From contig NZ_CP042467.1 in the NCBI RefSeq assembly GCF_007993755.1, positions 5,542,001-5,606,000 on the forward strand: 64,000 bases of DNA, given 5' to 3'. Shown here piece by piece: positions 23,366 through 58,059 of the stretch (positions within the stretch are counted from its first letter, which is position 1; each line of letters begins with the position of its first letter). The stretch comes from Microvenator marinus. GTDB taxonomy: Bacteria; Myxococcota_A; Bradymonadia; Bradymonadales; Bradymonadaceae. Under the pieces are notes generated by a model. The model did no database searches. It saw nothing but the letters and a program-made list of their open reading frames with translations, and had not been told where the DNA came from. Made by a program: the position numbers and the translations under genes.

Positions 23366-25279
23366 TTACTGCGCGCCGGTCAGATTGCCGTCAATCCCCG
23401 TAATCTTGAGAGCGATTGACTTGGCATCCAGCGTGCCGTTGCCATCAGTATCAATGTCATTGGGCGCCAGAGTGCCGAGCAAGTTGATGAGCTGAGCGGG
23501 AGGCAATGGTAGCGAGTCCGGATCTAGCGAGTTGATGGCCGCATTGAGGTCGGTCTCGGTGACGGCACCGCCTAGGATACCGTTGAACGCGCTCACGTTG
23601 GTCCCAGACACCGTTACGGTCTTTTCGATCCTCGCCATATAGACGGTCACATCCAGCGTATTGGCGGCATCGAGAGGGATGGACACCGGAACCTGGGTGT
23701 TCGGCCCACCAGCGGTCACCAGATTGCCCGTGCGGGTCGCAGGGAGCTGAACCAGTCGGTCACACGACAAATTGTTCAAACTCGCTCTAGATGCGTAATA
23801 ATCGCACGTGGCGGCCACCAAATCGCACGATGGGTTGGTCGGGGCCAGTTCCCCGGTCAAGAGGGCTAGCGTGAATTGGCCAGGTTGGAAGCCAATATAC
23901 TCGAAGAGCAGAATCAAGCTTCCGTCGGCAACTGCATCTGCGAGCGGCTGATTCACAAATCCACCAAGCGCTGACAAGACGTTGTCACGGTCGCCGTCCC
24001 CATCCACATCTAGCGCCTCGCCCACACTCGTGTTCGCGCCGAGCGCCAGGGCGCTGAACTTCGAAGCATCCGCAAACGACGGCGTGCAGAAGCACTGACT
24101 GGTATCCGCGGAACAAATGCCAGCAGCGCAGACGTCACCTGTGGAACAACTCAGCCCGTCATCACAGGTGTTGCCAGTGAGCGGCGAGTGGATGCATCCC
24201 TGATTCACATTGCAGGAATCGGAGGTGCAATCGTTTCCGTCGTCGCAAGTCCTGGTGGTGCCTCCACACGAGCCCTCGAAACACGCGTCGCTCTCGGTAC
24301 AGGCGTTGCCGTCATCACAGGACAAGGTGTTAAACTCGTACGTACAGCCAGCAGTGTCGGGGTCGCAGAGGTCCGTGGTGCAAGGGTTTCCGTCGTCGCA
24401 AATGCTGACTTCGCCGGTGCAACACGGGCTGTTCGTGGGCAGGTATTGGCATCCGGCGACCGGATGGCAGATATCGATGGTACACGCGTTGTTGTCGTCA
24501 CAGGTCTCGGGTTCTCCGGCACCACAAACGCCTTCGGAGCAGGTGTCGCCGGTGGTGCAGGGGTCGCCGTCATCACACGCGGCGGTGTTATTGGTGTGTG
24601 TGCATCCTGTTTCTGGGTCGCAGACATCATCGGTGCACGGATTGCCGTCGTCGCACCCGACCTCGCCACCAACGCACGTGCCTCCAACGCACACGTCATC
24701 GGCCGTGCAAAGACTTGAATCGTCGCACGCTGTTCCGTCGGCAGCGGGCGTATTCATGCAGCCCGCAATCGGATCACACGAAGCCACGGTACACGAGTTT
24801 CCGTCGTCACAATCCACCTCTTCGCCTGTGCAAATGCCGGCCTGACACGTCGTGTCAAACGTACAGATATTTCCGTCATCGCAGGCCTCGCCGTCAGCAA
24901 CTCCGCTCCACGCGTCGGGCGTAGCCGGGTCGCAAATACCGCATCCTTTGGAGTCGGTATCGCCGGGTTCGTGGCAAACGCCCTGAATCAAACAGGTGTC
25001 TTCAACCAAGCTCCAGGCACAGATTTTCCCTTGCCCGGCCTGCTCCACACAGGTGTCTGTGGTGCACGACAAGCCGTCGTCACAATCGGAAGCTTCTTCG
25101 CATCGAACTACGCCCTCGAACACCGGGTCTGGTGTCTGAGCGTCTTCTGACATGTCTTCGTCTGCATTATTGGTGACGGTGGGGTTGTTATTTGGGGTCG
25201 GTTTTGGCGCCGGTGAATCATCACTGCAGCCGGCAAAACCAAAGAGTAGGGCGCTGAATAAGGTCAGGCGATTTTTCAT
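23366..25279 (-). CDS. Cys-rich repeat lipoprotein (CDDGNxCT type)
   Basis: A 637-residue lipoprotein (Cys18, then SDD). About residues 60-400 carry roughly ten repeats of the form C-D-D-G-N-x-C-T-x-D-x-C-x-P-x-x-G-C, sometimes alternating with T-C-x-x-G-x-C. A C-terminal domain of about 230 residues follows, with a possible calcium-binding element D-V-D-G-D-G-D-R-D and a second near the end D-I-D-T-D-G-N-G-T-L-D. It is joined to the 1024-residue protein by ATGA, so the pair are probably partners at the cell surface. Confidence 0.85.
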   Translation of the reverse strand: MKNRLTLFSALLFGFAGCSDDSPAPKPTPNNNPTVTNNADEDMSEDAQTPDPVFEGVVRCEEASDCDDGLSCTTDTCVEQAGQGKICAWSLVEDTCLIQGVCHEPGDTDSKGCGICDPATPDAWSGVADGEACDDGNICTFDTTCQAGICTGEEVDCDDGNSCTVASCDPIAGCMNTPAADGTACDDSSLCTADDVCVGGTCVGGEVGCDDGNPCTDDVCDPETGCTHTNNTAACDDGDPCTTGDTCSEGVCGAGEPETCDDNNACTIDICHPVAGCQYLPTNSPCCTGEVSICDDGNPCTTDLCDPDTAGCTYEFNTLSCDDGNACTESDACFEGSCGGTTRTCDDGNDCTSDSCNVNQGCIHSPLTGNTCDDGLSCSTGDVCAAGICSADTSQCFCTPSFADASKFSALALGANTSVGEALDVDGDGDRDNVLSALGGFVNQPLADAVADGSLILLFEYIGFQPGQFTLALLTGELAPTNPSCDLVAATCDYYASRASLNNLSCDRLVQLPATRTGNLVTAGGPNTQVPVSIPLDAANTLDVTVYMARIEKTVTVSGTNVSAFNGILGGAVTETDLNAAINSLDPDSLPLPPAQLINLLGTLAPNDIDTDGNGTLDAKSIALKITGIDGNLTGAQ

Positions 25280-28200
25280 TGAAGCCTCCCGTAGATTACG
25301 GTGTTGCCGCTTTGTCTCGAGCTTGGAAGTCCTGCGTCGTTGATAGGAACGATTCGTATGAGCGAAGTTCCTGGAGGTTGTCCGAGCGAGGCGGATAGGT
25401 CGATTTCAGGCAGTGGGAACGAGGCTAGCGGAGTGCCATTGCCAAGCAGTCCTCCGAGCGCCGGAACGAGCTGAGTCTCCAACAAGGACGCCAGCGCGGA
25501 CTCAACGCCGAGTGCAGGCTCGTTAGTCACATTGACCTCGAGCTTCACGTTTTCAATGGCCTGAATGATGATCTCGATATCGCCTGAGTTCGGGTTGGCG
25601 GCGAGCGTAATCGGGGCGTCAAAGGCCACGTAAACCTCGGCGTTTACGGGTTGTCCAAAAAGGTCCAGCGTGGCGTCAATCCTCAAATCCCCGATATAGA
25701 GCCTAAGCTCGCCGTTGACGCAGTCAGTGGCAACCGGAGGAAGATATCCACTGACGTCCATGTTCAAGTTGGTCACGCCGTACTGGGCCAAGTCCACGTT
25801 GCCCAAGAGCGCGGGGTCCACGGGGAATTGAAGAAGTCCTCCCCACCACGCGGCGCGCAAGATCTGGTTGATAGTATCGTCAGCAAAGACGATCTCCAAT
25901 GGGGCCGCCTTAGGGATCACCATTTGCTGCCCAGCTCCACAGCCAACGCGCATAGGCACGCCGAGGTTTGCGTTGAACGGGTCGGCATTTGGCGTGCCGC
26001 GTGTGGTCGAAGTTGCCCATGCTCGAAGTCCAAAAGCGCCGCCTTGAGGTCCAGGGGAAGCATCTTGGAAATCGCTAAAGCTGAAGTCGCTCTCGAGCGC
26101 GATATCGATTGGAGGAGGGTTACCGTCCAAGCGAGGTAGGCTGAAGACTTGGTTGAACGCTAGGGCTCCGAGGCCGTCCTCGAGGAGAGGGCCGAGGACC
26201 GTAGAGAGTTGTGTGTTGAGTTCTGTTTCGAGGTCGGAAACGAGTCCGCCTCGGATGAACGGCTCGATGATGCCGAGAAGGAAGTTCGTCCAGATATTAT
26301 TGGAGTAAATATCCAGACCGTTCACCGAGGTCGCAGGGTTGTTGACCGAGACGGCCAGCGTGTTGTCTGGATTTACTGTGATGATGAGATTTGCCGTGAT
26401 GACGATTGAGTCGATGTCGAGCCCACCATTGCTATCGCCACCGGCAAGCAAGCAACCAAACGCAGTGCAGTCGAAGTAGAGTCCACCTTCGATTTGGTTC
26501 AGGCTCGCCCTCACTCTTAGTCCGCCGTCGATCGCGTCTAATGTGACCGTCGAGCCAGCAAAGTCGAGGCTCGTCAAATAGATATCGTACCCTGAATTGC
26601 TGGCGATAGGCGTGTCTGAGTCGAAGAAGCTGCTCAGGTCAAAGCCGTCCAAAACACCTTTGAAAATCGCCGCCAAATCTGTGGGAGGCGGAGATTGTTT
26701 GTCGTCGATCGAGTCTTGGGCGAGGTAGATTCCAAGTCCCGGATTGACATTTCCTTGGCCACTTGTGGTGGGGTTCGTGAAGGCACTTGAGTAGTGGAAC
26801 GCCTGGACGCGGTACTCTTCGGTACCGAGCTCGTCCGACGCACTGAACTCGAGCGTATTCGCACCCGCATCCGGCACAAGAGTCAGCGAGAACGAGCCAT
26901 TCTGGTTGGGAGTAACGTCTTGGCCGTTGATCTGGAACGTGGTGATATCACCAGCACCGCTGTCCACCGTGCCCGTCACCGTAATGCCGTTGCCAATCGG
27001 ACCCAGAATCGTGGCTCCGCGAGGCGGGTATGTGATGTTGATGATGGGACGACACGTAAACGACTGAACCACCGTAAAGCCGCAGCCCGTGTCGGGATCG
27101 CAGAAGTTCACGGTACATGGGTTGTTGTCCTCGCAGGTGTCCGAAATGTCCTCGTTGAGGCATCCCGTGGCTGGGTCGCACGAATCTGAGGTGCAGAGGT
27201 TATTGTCGTCACAACTCAATGGTTGTGTGCCGGGCTGGCAGCCACCGTCCGCGCACGTATCGCCGACGGTGCACGCGTTGTTATCGTCGCACGCGAGCGT
27301 GTTGTTAACGTGAATCACGCCGACCGCTGGGTCGCATGTGTCGTCGGTGCATGGGTTACCGTCATCAGGGTTTACTGGGCTTCCGATGCATGCGCCATTT
27401 GTGCAGGTGTCCACTGTGGTGCAGAGATTATTGTCATCGCAAGGGTCGGTATTGAACGGGAAAACACAGCCGAGGGCCGGGTCACAAGCCTCGTCGGTAC
27501 AGGGGTTGGTGTCAGTACAGCGGTCTGAGATATCCTCGTGGTCACAGCCGTCCACCGCATCGCAGAAGTCGATGGTGCAGAGGTTATTGTCATCACACGA
27601 GACGACCTCCTGAACCACGCACTCGCCCGCCAAGCAGACACTCGCCTCGGTACACACAGAGTTGTCCGTGCAGGTGGCGCCGTCATCGGGGACGAAGGTA
27701 CAACCTAGGGCTGGGTCGCAAGAGTCAGCGGTACATGGATTTGAGTCGTCACAGCTTAAGCCAGGGCCGGGAACACACGCGCCTTCCACGCAAGTATCGC
27801 CGTCCGTGCACGCATCGCCGTCACTACAATCCGCGGTGTTATTGGCGAACATGCATCCGCCCGCGCCGTCGCACGTGTCGTCGGTGCAAGGGTTGCCGTC
27901 ATCGCATTGAAAGGACTGCCCAACACACACTCCGTCAACGCAGGTGTCGTTGCTGGTGCAGGCATTGCCATCATCACAGCCACCCGCATCAGCCTTAGGC
28001 GTCCATGCCGCGTCATCACTCACCACGAGGCATACTTCGCACGAGTTTTCTGGATTTGGCGCGCCGTTGTCCACGCACGCCCCGTCGATTTCGCACTGGT
28101 CGTCGGTGCAGCACGCGGCGGCGTCGTACGTGTGAACACACGCTCCTTCAACGCATTCGTCCTGTGTACACGCGTCCCCGTCATTACAGGCGTCCGGGCA

Positions 28201-28350
28201 CAACTCGCCTGAGTCTACGCCGGAGTCTGGGCTCATGTCCGACGTGTTATTATCGGGGGTCGGTACGGAGGTGGTGCTTTCGTCACCGCACGAAATGGCG
28301 AAGAGCGCAGCCACGCAAAGAATACGCTGAAGGCCTCTTGAGAAACCCAT
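25276..28350 (-). CDS. Large Cys-rich lipoprotein with Ig-like and BPI/TULIP-like C-terminal region
   Basis: A 1024-residue lipoprotein (lipobox AISC, Cys21, then GDE). Residues about 50-460 hold ten or more repeats of C-D-D-x-N-x-C-T-x-D-x-C. A glucodextranase-B-like Ig domain follows (I-T-Y-P-P-R-G-A ... V-T-G-T-V-D). The last about 480 residues have no Cys-repeats. They show two halves, each ending with a long amphipathic helix rich in Leu and Gly, and a pattern like that of lipid-binding BPI/LBP (TULIP) proteins; that resemblance is inference from the pattern only. The ATG at 28350 has AGGAG upstream. Confidence 0.85.
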   Translation of the reverse strand: MGFSRGLQRILCVAALFAISCGDESTTSVPTPDNNTSDMSPDSGVDSGELCPDACNDGDACTQDECVEGACVHTYDAAACCTDDQCEIDGACVDNGAPNPENSCEVCLVVSDDAAWTPKADAGGCDDGNACTSNDTCVDGVCVGQSFQCDDGNPCTDDTCDGAGGCMFANNTADCSDGDACTDGDTCVEGACVPGPGLSCDDSNPCTADSCDPALGCTFVPDDGATCTDNSVCTEASVCLAGECVVQEVVSCDDNNLCTIDFCDAVDGCDHEDISDRCTDTNPCTDEACDPALGCVFPFNTDPCDDNNLCTTVDTCTNGACIGSPVNPDDGNPCTDDTCDPAVGVIHVNNTLACDDNNACTVGDTCADGGCQPGTQPLSCDDNNLCTSDSCDPATGCLNEDISDTCEDNNPCTVNFCDPDTGCGFTVVQSFTCRPIINITYPPRGATILGPIGNGITVTGTVDSGAGDITTFQINGQDVTPNQNGSFSLTLVPDAGANTLEFSASDELGTEEYRVQAFHYSSAFTNPTTSGQGNVNPGLGIYLAQDSIDDKQSPPPTDLAAIFKGVLDGFDLSSFFDSDTPIASNSGYDIYLTSLDFAGSTVTLDAIDGGLRVRASLNQIEGGLYFDCTAFGCLLAGGDSNGGLDIDSIVITANLIITVNPDNTLAVSVNNPATSVNGLDIYSNNIWTNFLLGIIEPFIRGGLVSDLETELNTQLSTVLGPLLEDGLGALAFNQVFSLPRLDGNPPPIDIALESDFSFSDFQDASPGPQGGAFGLRAWATSTTRGTPNADPFNANLGVPMRVGCGAGQQMVIPKAAPLEIVFADDTINQILRAAWWGGLLQFPVDPALLGNVDLAQYGVTNLNMDVSGYLPPVATDCVNGELRLYIGDLRIDATLDLFGQPVNAEVYVAFDAPITLAANPNSGDIEIIIQAIENVKLEVNVTNEPALGVESALASLLETQLVPALGGLLGNGTPLASFPLPEIDLSASLGQPPGTSLIRIVPINDAGLPSSRQSGNTVIYGRLQ

Positions 28351-30368: not shown

Positions 30369-32039
30369 TCAATAGATGTCGTTCACGGTGTTGTAGACAT
30401 TGAACTTTCCTGTGGGGTTCTGAACCCAATCACCTTGAATGACCTTCTTCACTTCCAGGGTCGCGTCGTCGTAGACAACCAGGGCGCTCTTCTCGCCCAT
30501 GAAGTACGAGACCCATGCCTCGTCTCCATCCTGATTGAACTCGATATGAACCGCGCGTCCGTCCACTCCTTGAGGCGCTTCGAGCTTCTTCTTGAAGGTG
30601 AAGGTCTCGAGGTCAAAGACGTATATCGCGCTATTGAGTGACGCATCGGGGTTCATTGTCCGGTCTGCGTAGAAGTGCTTGGATTTAGGGTGAGTTTTCA
30701 CGAAGAGCGACCCGCCTCCTTCGCCCGGCATTTCCATCTTCTTGACCACCGTCCACTGGCCTTCGCCTGGGTCGGTCTTGATGAATTGGATCGTGTTGTC
30801 GCCAAGATGGCTCGTGGCCCAAAGGTTACCCAATTTGGGGTCTTTGACGTTGGCACCGCGGCCAGGGTGCGGCGTTCTGCCCACTTCAACAATCTTCTCG
30901 AGCCTCTGGTTCGGCACGTCGATGACCACGATCTTGTTGTTTGAGTTTGCGGCGACAAGGAAGTACTTACCACTCGCGTCCCAGCCGCCATCGTGGAGGA
31001 AGCGTTCGGTGGGTATCTGCGTGGATTTTGGGTTTCGCGGGTCGGTGTAGTCGACAAGCCAGACCATGCCGGTTTCCTTGACGTTCACTACCCAAATCGG
31101 GTCCGTGTGAGAGGCAACAATAGCGGCCACGCGTGCCTCCTTGACGAACTCCTTGTCCCCACAACACGCGTTTCCGGATGTCTTGGTAAGGCTGAGCGGT
31201 TCCAGCGTTTGTGCGTCGAAAATCACAAAATGGCTGGGATTGTAGCCGCCAGCAATCAAGTACTTGTCATAGAAATCACCTTTGTCTCCCTTGTATTTAC
31301 TTACGTCCACGGAACGTGCATCGAGCGACGCACGTACCTCAGCAACTACCTTGGGAACATCGTAGTAGGTGTCGATCATCGTGATTCGGCCATCGCGTCC
31401 AATCGAATAGATGTATCGGCTCGAAGCCGAAGGGCGCAGAATGTGGACTGCAAAACCGGTTTCGAGCACCACAATCTGTTCATGGGTGTCACCGTCGATG
31501 ATGGCAACCTTGCCAGCATCGCGCATGATCACGCCCATGTAGCCGTTGATGTTGCGATTGTGCTGGGGTTTGGTGGGGCGGTCCGCAACTGGGACCTTGA
31601 GCTCCCACGTGGCCTTGACGTCAGCCATTTCGAAGGGTGGTGGCTCAGGTGGGTCCACTTGAAGGAAGCGAGCCATGAGGTCGATTTCCTCCGGGGTCAG
31701 GATGCCTTTCCACTCCGGCATTCCTCCTGCGGTGCCGTTTTCAATGAAGACTTTCAAGCCCGCCATGCCCAGGGCCTTAGTGGCAGGCGCTTTTCCGTCT
31801 CCATCCGGCAAGAGGGATGGACCCGTTGCGCCGTGGCGCGTGGTACCGTGGCATCCTGCACATTTATCGAAGTAAATGGCGGAGGCCTGCTTCATCTCGG
31901 CATCGGAAACCGTGATTTCTACGGGCTCTTCGGCGGCAGGAGCTACCGCCGCTGGTTCTTCCTTTTGGGCTGGTCTTCGGTTGTCTTTACAACTGATGGC
32001 TAGTAGGCCGGCGAGTATGATTAGAACGTAAGGTCTCAT
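30369..32039 (-). CDS. nirS: Cytochrome cd1 nitrite reductase (NO-forming), as a lipoprotein
   Basis: A 556-residue protein with a cytochrome c domain (C60-A-G-C63-H64; likely Met ligand M107 in G-G-M-P-E-W) and a C-terminal eight-bladed heme d1 propeller. The conserved His residues are present: H199 in T-G-F-A-V-H-I, H311 in V-A-A-I-V-A-S-H, and H349 in L-H-D-G-G. It reduces nitrite to nitric oxide in the periplasm. Unusually, the signal is of lipoprotein type (L-A-I-S-C17, then KDN), so it is membrane-tethered. Start ATG 32039, preceded by GAGGAGG. No d1 biosynthesis genes (nirE, nirJ, nirD/L/G/H, nirF) are found in this window. A promoter with an FNR-like and a RegA-like site precedes it. 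Confidence 0.93.
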   Translation of the reverse strand: MRPYVLIILAGLLAISCKDNRRPAQKEEPAAVAPAAEEPVEITVSDAEMKQASAIYFDKCAGCHGTTRHGATGPSLLPDGDGKAPATKALGMAGLKVFIENGTAGGMPEWKGILTPEEIDLMARFLQVDPPEPPPFEMADVKATWELKVPVADRPTKPQHNRNINGYMGVIMRDAGKVAIIDGDTHEQIVVLETGFAVHILRPSASSRYIYSIGRDGRITMIDTYYDVPKVVAEVRASLDARSVDVSKYKGDKGDFYDKYLIAGGYNPSHFVIFDAQTLEPLSLTKTSGNACCGDKEFVKEARVAAIVASHTDPIWVVNVKETGMVWLVDYTDPRNPKSTQIPTERFLHDGGWDASGKYFLVAANSNNKIVVIDVPNQRLEKIVEVGRTPHPGRGANVKDPKLGNLWATSHLGDNTIQFIKTDPGEGQWTVVKKMEMPGEGGGSLFVKTHPKSKHFYADRTMNPDASLNSAIYVFDLETFTFKKKLEAPQGVDGRAVHIEFNQDGDEAWVSYFMGEKSALVVYDDATLEVKKVIQGDWVQNPTGKFNVYNTVNDIY

Positions 32040-32073: not shown

Positions 32074-32137
32074 ACGAACTAGCGCTCTGAACCCCCCAAA
32101 GACATGCGGCAAAATGTCGCACCTGATTCAGATCATG
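32074..32137 (-). promoter_or_regulatory. nirS promoter: FNR/DNR-like box plus RegA/PrrA-type box
   Basis: Read on the minus strand toward nirS: TGATCTGAATCA (32135-32124; core TGAT-N4-ATCA of the FNR/DNR type), then GCGACATTTTGCCGC (32120-32106), a perfect fit to GCGNC-N5-GNCGC, the type described for RegA/PrrA/RegR. After a variable stretch comes GCGCTAGTTCGT (32085-32074), where TAGTTC may serve as -10. If so, the RegA-type box is centred near -43 and the FNR-like box near -60. The same three elements at the same spacing lie before the reg operon (55609-55672). Confidence 0.75.
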
Positions 32138-55608: not shown

Positions 55609-55672
55609 CATGATCTAGGTCAGGTGCGACGAATTGCCACATGGATAGTCGCAAGGGCGTGCGCTAGTTCGT
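55609..55672 (+). promoter_or_regulatory. reg operon promoter: FNR-like box plus RegA/PrrA-type box
   Basis: TGATCTAGGTCA (55611-55622; one mismatch from TGAT-N4-ATCA), GCGACGAATTGCCAC (55626-55640; one mismatch from GCGNC-N5-GNCGC) and GCGCTAGTTCGT (55661-55672). It is collinear with the nirS promoter: 28 of 35 bases match in the first block and 12 of 12 in the last, with no gap across 64 positions. The start codon of the first gene is 47 bases further on. Autoregulation by RegA is inferred. Confidence 0.7.
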
Positions 55673-55719: not shown

Positions 55720-56145
55720 ATGACAAAGTTTATCATCGCAATCATCGCCTCCGTTTTCGTCGTCTCGTGTGGAGAGCACTCTGACCACTCAGACCATGGG
55801 GACCATCACAACCACTCGACCACGAACAATCACGTAGTCGAACTCGTGCAGACCGTGGATGGATGGACATTGGAAATGATCCCGCCGGACGCGGATTACG
55901 TGGTGGGCGCCAACGAGTTTCAGTTCAAACTCATTGATCCGGATGGCCCAGTCGACGCCACCGAGTTCGATGTCGAAGGCTGGATGCCCGCTCATGGTCA
56001 TGGGACGGCCGTACCGACCACCGTTGAGACAACCGGAGAGGGCGAATACACCGCTACCGTGACGTTCAACATGGGAGGGGCTTGGGAAGTGCAGGTAAAT
56101 GCGGATGGCAAGGAGTTTGTCTTCAACGTGATGGTACCCATGTAA
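55720..56145 (+). CDS. His-rich lipoprotein with YtkA/CopC-like domain
   Basis: A 141-residue lipoprotein (lipobox VVSC, Cys17). After it comes a His-rich stretch (H-S-D-H-S-D-H-G-D-H-H-N-H-S), then a YtkA/FixH-like beta-sandwich with W-M-P-A-H-G-H-G-T and M-G-G-A-W-E-V-Q-V. The conserved H-x-H is the copper-type ligand pair of such domains. It probably binds copper or another metal in the periplasm. Start ATG 55720 with GGGAG upstream. Its stop overlaps the next start as TAATG, so it is translated with regB. Confidence 0.85.
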   Translation: MTKFIIAIIASVFVVSCGEHSDHSDHGDHHNHSTTNNHVVELVQTVDGWTLEMIPPDADYVVGANEFQFKLIDPDGPVDATEFDVEGWMPAHGHGTAVPTTVETTGEGEYTATVTFNMGGAWEVQVNADGKEFVFNVMVPM

Positions 56146-57407
56146 TGCAAAGATTCTCCCCACCTGCTGAGGCTGAAGGGCTCGGGAAATGGCTGATTTG
56201 GCTGCGTTGGTGCGCTATTGCCGCCCAAGTTGTGGTGTTGGGGATCGTCGTGTTTTGGCTTGGGCTGAGCGTCTCTCTGCCTGTCATAGCAAGTCTTTTC
56301 GCCTTTGAGGTTCTATCGAACGCGGTGTTGTCTTGGTGGGTCAAGAGCAAGCCGATGCCGGAGAGCACGCTTGCGTGGATTATGGCCATCGATGTGATTC
56401 TGCTCAGTGTTCTGCTCCAGGCGACCGGAGGCCCGTTCAATCCCTTCACCTTGATGTATCTGGTTCATGTCACCATTGCGGCGCTCACTCTGAGTTTTCG
56501 TTGGGTAGCAGCGCTTAGTGTGGTGAGCCTAGGGGCCTATGGGGCTCTATTCAGTCCGTGGCTTTGGGATCCTCATGCCCATCATATGCACCACGGAGCA
56601 GCGTTGACCCTTCACTTGGAGGGGATGTGGTGGGCCCTAGCGGTCACTGCCATCCTAATCATTCTCTTTGTGATGGGGTTGAGACGACACCTGGCAGAGC
56701 AGGAGGATGCCTTGAGGCGAGTGCGTGAGCTCCAAGAACAGGAATCGCGGCTCACCGCTCTGGCAACGCTGGCCGCTGGCGCAGCCCACGAACTGGCCAC
56801 GCCGCTCTCAACGATTGCAGTTGTAGCAAAGGAGCTCGAGCTGGCGCTGCAATCTGAGCGTCCGGAACTTGGCGAGGATGCCCGTTTGGTGAATTTTGAG
56901 GTGGCGCGATGCCGCCGCGTACTTTCACAGCTCTCACTGGATGCCGGAGCCATGATGGGGGAGGCGTCGGAACCTATCTCGGTTGTCGAGTTGAGCACGG
57001 CCATCATGGAGGATCTCTCGGATGGTGAACGACTACGAGTTGAAATCGACGACGATGCGTCTAGCTGCTGGATTTATGCGCCACGAGCGGGGCTTGCGCA
57101 GATTGTACGTGGGGTGGTTCGAAACGGCCTGCAAGCGGGCGAATCAGAAGTTCTGCTTCGGTTTTCCAAGGGTGAGGAAGGAGTGGTGGTCTTGGTGAAG
57201 GACGAGGGCAAGGGAATGGATGCTGAGACAAAAGCACGCATTTTTGAGCCCTTCTTTACCACTCGCGAGCATGGGCAAGGAATGGGCCTCGGGCTCTTCC
57301 TCGCCTACCGAATGATTCGAGACCTCGGAGGGCAAATCCACGTGGAGTCTGACTTAGATTCGGGAACCACTGTGCGGATCGAGATTCCATGTGAGAGGCG
57401 AAAATGA
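56145..57407 (+). CDS. regB: RegB/PrrB-family redox sensor histidine kinase
   Basis: A 420-residue kinase with six N-terminal transmembrane segments, the quinone-site motif G-G-P-F-N-P-F at 95-101, a His cluster (D-P-H-A-H-H-M-H-H) between the last two segments, the H-box H215 in A-A-H-E-L-A-T-P-L-S, the redox Cys C256 in A-R-C-R-R-V-L, and the ATP-binding region (G-K-G-M-D, G-Q-G-M-G-L-G-L-F). RegB senses respiratory redox state through quinone and cysteine oxidation and phosphorylates RegA. It is coupled to the lipoprotein before it and the RegA gene after it. Confidence 0.92.
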   Translation: MQRFSPPAEAEGLGKWLIWLRWCAIAAQVVVLGIVVFWLGLSVSLPVIASLFAFEVLSNAVLSWWVKSKPMPESTLAWIMAIDVILLSVLLQATGGPFNPFTLMYLVHVTIAALTLSFRWVAALSVVSLGAYGALFSPWLWDPHAHHMHHGAALTLHLEGMWWALAVTAILIILFVMGLRRHLAEQEDALRRVRELQEQESRLTALATLAAGAAHELATPLSTIAVVAKELELALQSERPELGEDARLVNFEVARCRRVLSQLSLDAGAMMGEASEPISVVELSTAIMEDLSDGERLRVEIDDDASSCWIYAPRAGLAQIVRGVVRNGLQAGESEVLLRFSKGEEGVVVLVKDEGKGMDAETKARIFEPFFTTREHGQGMGLGLFLAYRMIRDLGGQIHVESDLDSGTTVRIEIPCERRK

Positions 57408-57967
57408 GTCAAGGTGCCGAGTCGGAACACAAGCTTACATTGCTCATTGTGGATGATGACGAAGTCTTTAGGCCTCGCCTTGCTCGCGCCTTCGAGACCC
57501 GAGGGTTTGAAGTTTGGCATACGGCCGATGCCAGGTCTGCGGCCGATATCGTTCGTGAACACGACCCCGAGTTTGGAGTCATCGACTTGAGAATAAGCAC
57601 CGAGTCCAACGGTCTACAGGTTCTGAAGGAGCTCTTGGAGCTCTCGCCGCATCTGCGCGCGATCATCTTGACTGGATACGGCAGTATCGCCACGGCTGTG
57701 GACGCTGTGAAGTTGGGCGCGGTCTCCTACCTCACTAAACCCGCGGACGCAGACGAAATTCTTCATGCCCTCACCCAGAAAGAGCCGGCATTAACCTCCG
57801 GCGAAGTCTCGTACGAAGAGGCGCCCTCGTTGGCCCGTGCCGAGTGGGAGCATATCAACCGAGTGCTCTCGGATTGCGGAGGCAATATATCCCAGGCTGC
57901 CCGAATTCTAGGGATTCATCGCCGCTCGCTCCAACGCAAACTCGCCAAACATCCTCCTCAGAAATGA
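57404..57967 (+). CDS. regA: RegA/PrrA/ActR-family response regulator
   Basis: A 187-residue response regulator: acidic pocket D17-D18-D19, phospho-acceptor D61 in V-I-D-L-R, T90 and K112, and a Fis-type helix-turn-helix at about 145-180 with the strongly conserved W-E-H-I-N-R-V-L-x-D-C-G-G-N-I and R-R-S-L-Q-R-K-L-A-K. The link after D61 (I-S-T-E-S-N-G) has an extra residue compared with the usual G-D-G-S-G. Overlaps regB by ATGA. The likely targets are its own promoter and nirS, both bearing GCGNC-N5-GNCGC-type sites. Confidence 0.93.
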   Translation: MSQGAESEHKLTLLIVDDDEVFRPRLARAFETRGFEVWHTADARSAADIVREHDPEFGVIDLRISTESNGLQVLKELLELSPHLRAIILTGYGSIATAVDAVKLGAVSYLTKPADADEILHALTQKEPALTSGEVSYEEAPSLARAEWEHINRVLSDCGGNISQAARILGIHRRSLQRKLAKHPPQK

Positions 57968-58059
57968 AGGCGGGCGGTGTGGACTTTTTCCGCACTCTAC
58001 GCTAGCTTGCGCGCCCCGCGGAGCGCGATGGTCGTCGCTAGTTTGGGAAGGAGACGCCG

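Follow-up and report, generated by a model that had tools for sequence, protein, structure and literature searches.

Two 64-bp stretches of the window (the whole 64,000 nucleotides analysed), one in front of nirS and the other in front of ytkA-regB-regA, are probably dual-activator promoters of the sigma-70 type, predicted to switch both operons together with feedback by RegA. Read toward its gene, positions 32137-32074 (minus strand) align without a gap to 55609-55672 (plus strand), with 43 of the 64 positions identical overall, comprising 28/35 in the first block, 3/17 in the middle and 12/12 in the last block. The next best ungapped match to either 64-mer within the window reaches 34/64, and about 0.008 pairs at the level of 43/64 are expected in the whole window under a simple binomial model. 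Both copies sit just upstream of operons, and the core of the first block, TCAGGTGCGACNNNNTGCC, has exact matches genome-wide at these two places only (single contig of 5,847,748 bp). The coordinates, orientation, gap-free alignment and all counts given by the first-pass annotation were reproduced, as were its motifs TGAT-N4-RTCA and GCGAC-N5-GCCRC, and its reading of a three-part promoter has gained independent support for each part, namely the CRP/FNR-type site, the predicted RegA box and the -10 block.

The two operons and their promoters

The features of the two regions are as follows, in order of position.

30369-32039, minus strand: nirS, cytochrome cd1 nitrite reductase with a lipoprotein-type signal (PF02239, 373 bits)
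32074-32085, minus strand: -10 block in front of nirS, GCGCTAGTTCGT, with TAGTTC as its hexamer (32081-32076); 12/12 in both promoters
32106-32120, minus strand: predicted RegA box in front of nirS, GCGACATTTTGCCGC, centred near -44 (consensus match; box type found at regBA loci of relatives)
32124-32135, minus strand: CRP/FNR-type site in front of nirS, TGATCTGAATCA, centred near -60.5 relative to the inferred start (assigned by sequence; site type recurs)
55611-55622, plus strand: CRP/FNR-type site in front of ytkA-regBA, TGATCTAGGTCA, centred near -60.5 (assigned by sequence; TGATCTAGATCA stands before ytkA of genome G010)
55626-55640, plus strand: predicted RegA box in front of ytkA-regBA, GCGACGAATTGCCAC, centred near -44 (consensus match; boxes before ytkA elsewhere)
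55661-55672, plus strand: -10 block in front of ytkA-regBA, GCGCTAGTTCGT, with TAGTTC as its hexamer (55665-55670); 12/12 in both promoters
55720-56145, plus strand: ytkA-like gene for a lipoprotein, at the head of the operon (PF13115, 55.9 bits)
56145-57407, plus strand: regB, redox sensor kinase (NF033792, 229 bits, cut-off 350)
57404-57967, plus strand: regA, response regulator with Fis-type HTH (NF033791, 188.5 bits over the full length, cut-off 250)

The NirS protein (556 aa) carries a cytochrome c domain together with PF02239 and thus both the cytochrome c and heme d1 domains, and it lies near the solved NirS chains, with 498 bits over the full length to 5guw and 493 bits to 1gq1; 6rtd_A, listed only as 'Cytochrome c', gave 129 bits. 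For heme d1 assembly, a whole-genome search with two families gave no match to PF17805 (NirD/L/G/H type) and a best NirJ-family match of 98 bits (cut-off 515), and no nir cluster was evident at a radical-SAM locus (5434 kb) inspected for heme d1 genes. Downstream of nirS and a TonB receptor, two large proteins with cysteine-rich Dicty_CTDC repeats are encoded at 25276-28350 and 23366-25279.

In the second operon, the ATG of regB overlaps the stop of ytkA and the start of regA likewise overlaps the stop of regB. The promoter had been assigned to a regBA operon; it does precede regB-regA, but the first gene of that operon is ytkA-like and not regB. The claim that RegA is encoded in the window holds, as the best NCBIfam matches of the two proteins are the RegA and RegB families, and by sequence the pair is a divergent member of the family because the scores miss the curated equivalog cut-offs. 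RegA combines a receiver with the HTH of the family, which could be aligned with 3rqi and matches the PrrA domain 1umq. The RegB translation exhibits, by reading, GGPFNPF and RCRRVL, which we take to be the quinone-binding motif of RegB (GGXXNPF type) and its redox cysteine motif, respectively.

A possible but less probable origin of the likeness is that one promoter is a duplicated and moved copy of the other, in which case the spacing would be inherited and the pair would not be independent witnesses, and the copy may still function. The identical last block and a common GGT between the two sites surpass what these promoters share with the other promoters of the genome and agree with copying, but the flanks are without homology and the spacer retains only 3/17 identities, so that any copying would be old and the blocks would have been kept by selection; G010 furthermore has a composite with a different gap before ytkA. 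A mobile repeat was considered and rejected, the flanks being without homology and no further exact copy of the first-block core occurring in the genome. A sigma-54 promoter was likewise rejected by reading: such promoters need GG-N10-GC, and GG-N11-GC is present.

The CRP/FNR-type site and its recurrence with the RegA box

The first element is a TGA-N6-TCA palindrome that recurs at a defined distance from a -10 near respiratory genes, as is typical of a CRP/FNR-type site. All pattern searches in this study were refined after the sites had been seen and their counts are not blind tests; with this reading, TGATCNNNATCA followed by 22 nt and TANNNT gave 31 matches in the genome at up to one mismatch, against 2 for the reversed pattern. 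Four of the five exact matches lie between 5,662,432 and 5,674,707, about 12 kb around a CRP/FNR regulator gene and nnrS that form a cluster related to NO and respiration; two exact sites precede COX1-like and TlpA-like genes adjoining nnrS, another lies in the leader of a nirK-like gene, and a one-mismatch site precedes a small gene upstream of the regulator gene, an arrangement which suggests that this regulator gene may be autoregulated. At these clustered sites the dyad lies near -40.5, whereas in the window promoters its centre lies 48.5 nt before the -10 and thus near -60.5 (taking the -10 to span -12 to -7), two helical turns higher. Activators at -40.5 occupy the class II position and those at -60.5 the class I position.

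The candidate regulator (genome 5668462-5669211) comprises cNMP-binding and Crp-HTH domains, its translated sequence contains no FNR-type cysteine motif, and among its best matches to solved chains is DNR with 60.8 bits, compared with 31 bits for the FNR type. It is predicted to be DNR-like rather than an FNR sensu stricto, and it would be the protein that binds the window sites. The description 'FNR-like' therefore needs to be taken in a wider sense: the site is of the CRP/FNR superfamily type and recurs at class II spacing, but FNR proper is not indicated, since the regulator lacks the cysteine cluster and resembles DNR. The gene preceding that of the regulator, with the CRP/FNR site upstream, is a small hemerythrin-like gene (named by reading).

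The composite of CRP/FNR site and RegA box, searched with gaps of 0-30 in 284 genomes of the phylum, was detected at three places only (about 0.02 expected; control pattern 0), which together with the two genomic copies of the core disposes of the concern in the first-pass annotation that the pattern might occur at many unrelated places. These are the two window sites and one in G010, a second genus of the same family, where the order is regB-regA, TGATCTAGATCA-GGGGGGT-GCGACAACTTGCCAC, ytkA; the composite thus again precedes a ytkA relative adjoining regBA, with a gap between the sites of 7 bp against 3 bp in the window promoters. Relatives of ytkA were found in 36/190 genomes and stand near regBA in G007, G010, G080, G103 and G115. 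A box (up to two mismatches, within 260 nt upstream) was present at 8 of the 27 ytkA loci with a readable start, compared with 36/1350 (2.7%) of random pieces drawn from the same loci (binomial 4e-7). The CRP/FNR site and the RegA box seem to have been gained or lost separately, because ytkA of G007 is preceded by an exact box but by no CRP/FNR site, and G008 has TGATCTCGATCA without a box. For nirS, which is present in 8 of the 116 genomes searched (own included), the whole composite is not kept at the loci of relatives: it is absent from most, several are without both sites, a RegA-type box alone precedes nirS of G057 and one nirS of G115, and a CRP/FNR site alone precedes one nirS of G002.

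The single occurrence of each site before other ytkA genes would also agree with negative or separate action, in which RegA at -44 would be a repressor or each factor would act under conditions of its own, and RegA of R. capsulatus is known to both activate and repress its targets (PMC5359404). This we regard as unlikely, since by reading no -35 is evident in either promoter and its place is taken by the box, as in an activator-dependent promoter.

The predicted RegA box and its distance to the -10 block

The second element was proposed to match the RegA/PrrA/RegR consensus, and this assignment as a predicted RegA box is well supported. The nirS box shows 0 mismatches to the published consensus sequences of RegR and of R. 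capsulatus RegA, and the ytkA box shows 1 mismatch to that of R. capsulatus RegA and 1 to that of RegR on the other strand; the two boxes are the imperfect palindromes TGCGACATTTTGCCGCA and TGCGACGAATTGCCACA. At the regBA loci of relatives (40 loci, 175 kb), GCGACNNNTTGYCRCAT was found 6 times exactly and 19 times with up to one mismatch, while the reversed pattern and 12 shuffled patterns gave 0 exact and 0-1 near sites at the same 40 loci.

In the window promoters the hexamer begins 25 nt past the end of the box, and the same distance was observed at two further candidate RegA promoters, those of the nirK-like gene and mbnP. When the box, the fixed distance and TANNNT were searched together in this genome, nirS, ytkA and the nirK-like gene ranked first with 1 mismatch each, and four sites followed with two mismatches, mbnP among them and two of the other three inside open reading frames. 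Boxes at the regBA loci of relatives are likewise followed by -10-like hexamers, such as TATTAT (L060), TATAAT (L062) and TATGAT (L070), which start about 23-25 nt past the box, these offsets being partly counted by hand. The proposed -10 block is thus supported by its spacing at four promoters here and at several regBA boxes of relatives. The match of the nirK-like protein to TIGR02376 reaches 129 bits (under the cut-off of 296), that of MbnP, a copper protein, lies above its cut-off, and the functions of nirS, ytkA, the nirK-like gene and mbnP fit control by RegBA. In the pattern searches the distance from box to -10 recurs at the nirK-like gene and mbnP, but neither promoter has a CRP/FNR site at -60. 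The nirK-like multicopper protein (genome 5674719-5676515) carries a cupredoxin domain at its C terminus as well as a MYXO-CTERM tail, and its gene presents a RegA box with -10 followed downstream by a class II-spaced CRP/FNR site in the leader, like tandem promoters.

Genome-wide, one-mismatch boxes number 8 against about 6-7 expected by chance, so that the two extra targets, the nirK-like gene and mbnP, are proposed from spacing and function. A large RegA regulon in this genome was considered but is not supported, since two-mismatch boxes (140 versus 100 in the control) scarcely exceed the control and the remaining one-mismatch boxes lie within or overlap open reading frames. Close in sequence to the third block, GCTAGTTTGG occurs at 58037-58046, directly before speA (58060), and -10 elements of the form TAGNNT may be common in this genome.

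That some other protein linked to regBA, whether of the Fis type or unrelated, binds the palindromic second element instead of RegA is rather improbable. RegA-family sites are degenerate in the literature and binding by RegA is here a prediction, which leaves some room for such a protein, but the boxes cluster at regBA loci across many families of the phylum, the published RegA/RegR consensus is matched and the RegA helix is typical of the family. Chance resemblance of two upstream regions is hardly credible: -10 type sequences are common to promoters and the pair was chosen after reading, but the identity stands well clear of the next best match, with far less than one such pair expected, the composite appears again beside regBA in G010, and boxes are enriched at regBA loci and before ytkA.

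Proposed mechanism and known systems

In the favoured reading of a dual-activator promoter, a CRP/FNR-superfamily activator would sit on the TGATC..TCA site near -60.5 (class I position), RegA would occupy the adjoining box TGCGAC-N4-TGCCRCA near -44, where a -35 element would otherwise lie, and the -10 TAGTTC would serve RNA polymerase. The CRP/FNR protein would contact RNA polymerase from upstream or aid RegA, and nirS and ytkA-regB-regA would be turned on jointly by low oxygen or reduced quinone together with the CRP/FNR signal (possibly NO), with RegA boosting its own synthesis through positive feedback on regBA. The sequence itself gives the sites with the spacing, rarity and recurrence described above, the last both at functionally related genes and in front of ytkA of a second genus; from this we infer the binding proteins, the position of the transcript start, a positive rather than a negative effect, and the signals. 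A wider proposal, which we consider evenly balanced, is that in Bradymonadia and other Myxococcota RegA acts through one sharp box of about TGCGACAATTTGCCRCAT at a near-fixed distance from the -10, and that here the abutting CRP/FNR site would turn it into a co-dependent switch joining nitrite reduction, copper-protein genes and RegBA feedback.

Dual control of denitrification genes by CRP/FNR and RegA-type regulators is already known in alphaproteobacteria. The norC promoter of Bradyrhizobium japonicum similarly combines a CRP/FNR-family site (FixK2 box) with RegA-family (RegR) boxes upstream of a denitrification gene, and has two transcript starts for the two regulators (PMC4064962). There the RegR half-sites are variably spaced, whereas here one -10 and one box stand at a near-fixed distance, the target is nirS with a copy on the regBA operon, and the phylum is Myxococcota. 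Control of nitrite reductase by the RegA family is also represented in that paper by citations of nirK under PrrBA/ActR in R. sphaeroides and A. tumefaciens (PMC4064962); those are copper NirK enzymes of alphaproteobacteria, in contrast to the cd1-type NirS found here, with the nirK-like gene as a likely second target. The RegA regulon of R. capsulatus has been mapped by ChIP-seq, and its sites GCGACCGTTCGTCGC (ccoN) and GTGACAATTTGTCCC (cydA) resemble the present box, but the motif there is degenerate (SSGNVRDNHYSNCSS), whereas at the regBA loci of Myxococcota the boxes vary less around a single sequence (PMC5359404).

No report of RegBA targets for this phylum was found in the literature searches. 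Several features appear to be new: the occurrence in this phylum, nirS as a target, the order of the abutting sites, and feedback that acts on ytkA-regB-regA. RegA-family sites have been described as hard to predict from sequence (PMC4263372, PMC5506826); comparative genomics provides a sharp RegA-type site at a near-fixed position in this phylum, which would link RegBA to cd1 nitrite reductase, copper-protein genes and its own synthesis. The two short promoters would allow direct tests of how RegA and the CRP/FNR activator are ordered and spaced and whether they depend on each other.

Among named GTDB genomes, 24 exact composites with gaps of 0-30 were found against 2-7 expected, many of them with other gaps before genes that look respiratory or copper-related, and one before a nosZ-like gene, all gene names here being read from translations only. 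As in the window, Rhodocyclaceae, Nitrosomonas and other proteobacteria have a CRP/FNR site and a RegA box in one upstream region, but with gaps of 1-30 bp and none of 3 bp. Three of these, in Azonexus/Dechloromonas (L168, L173 and L178), are flanked by a cytochrome c-like gene and by a regB-like gene that is divergent, with a gap of 21 bp in all, which suggests that the pairing of CRP/FNR site and putative RegA box also exists in betaproteobacteria, with other spacing.
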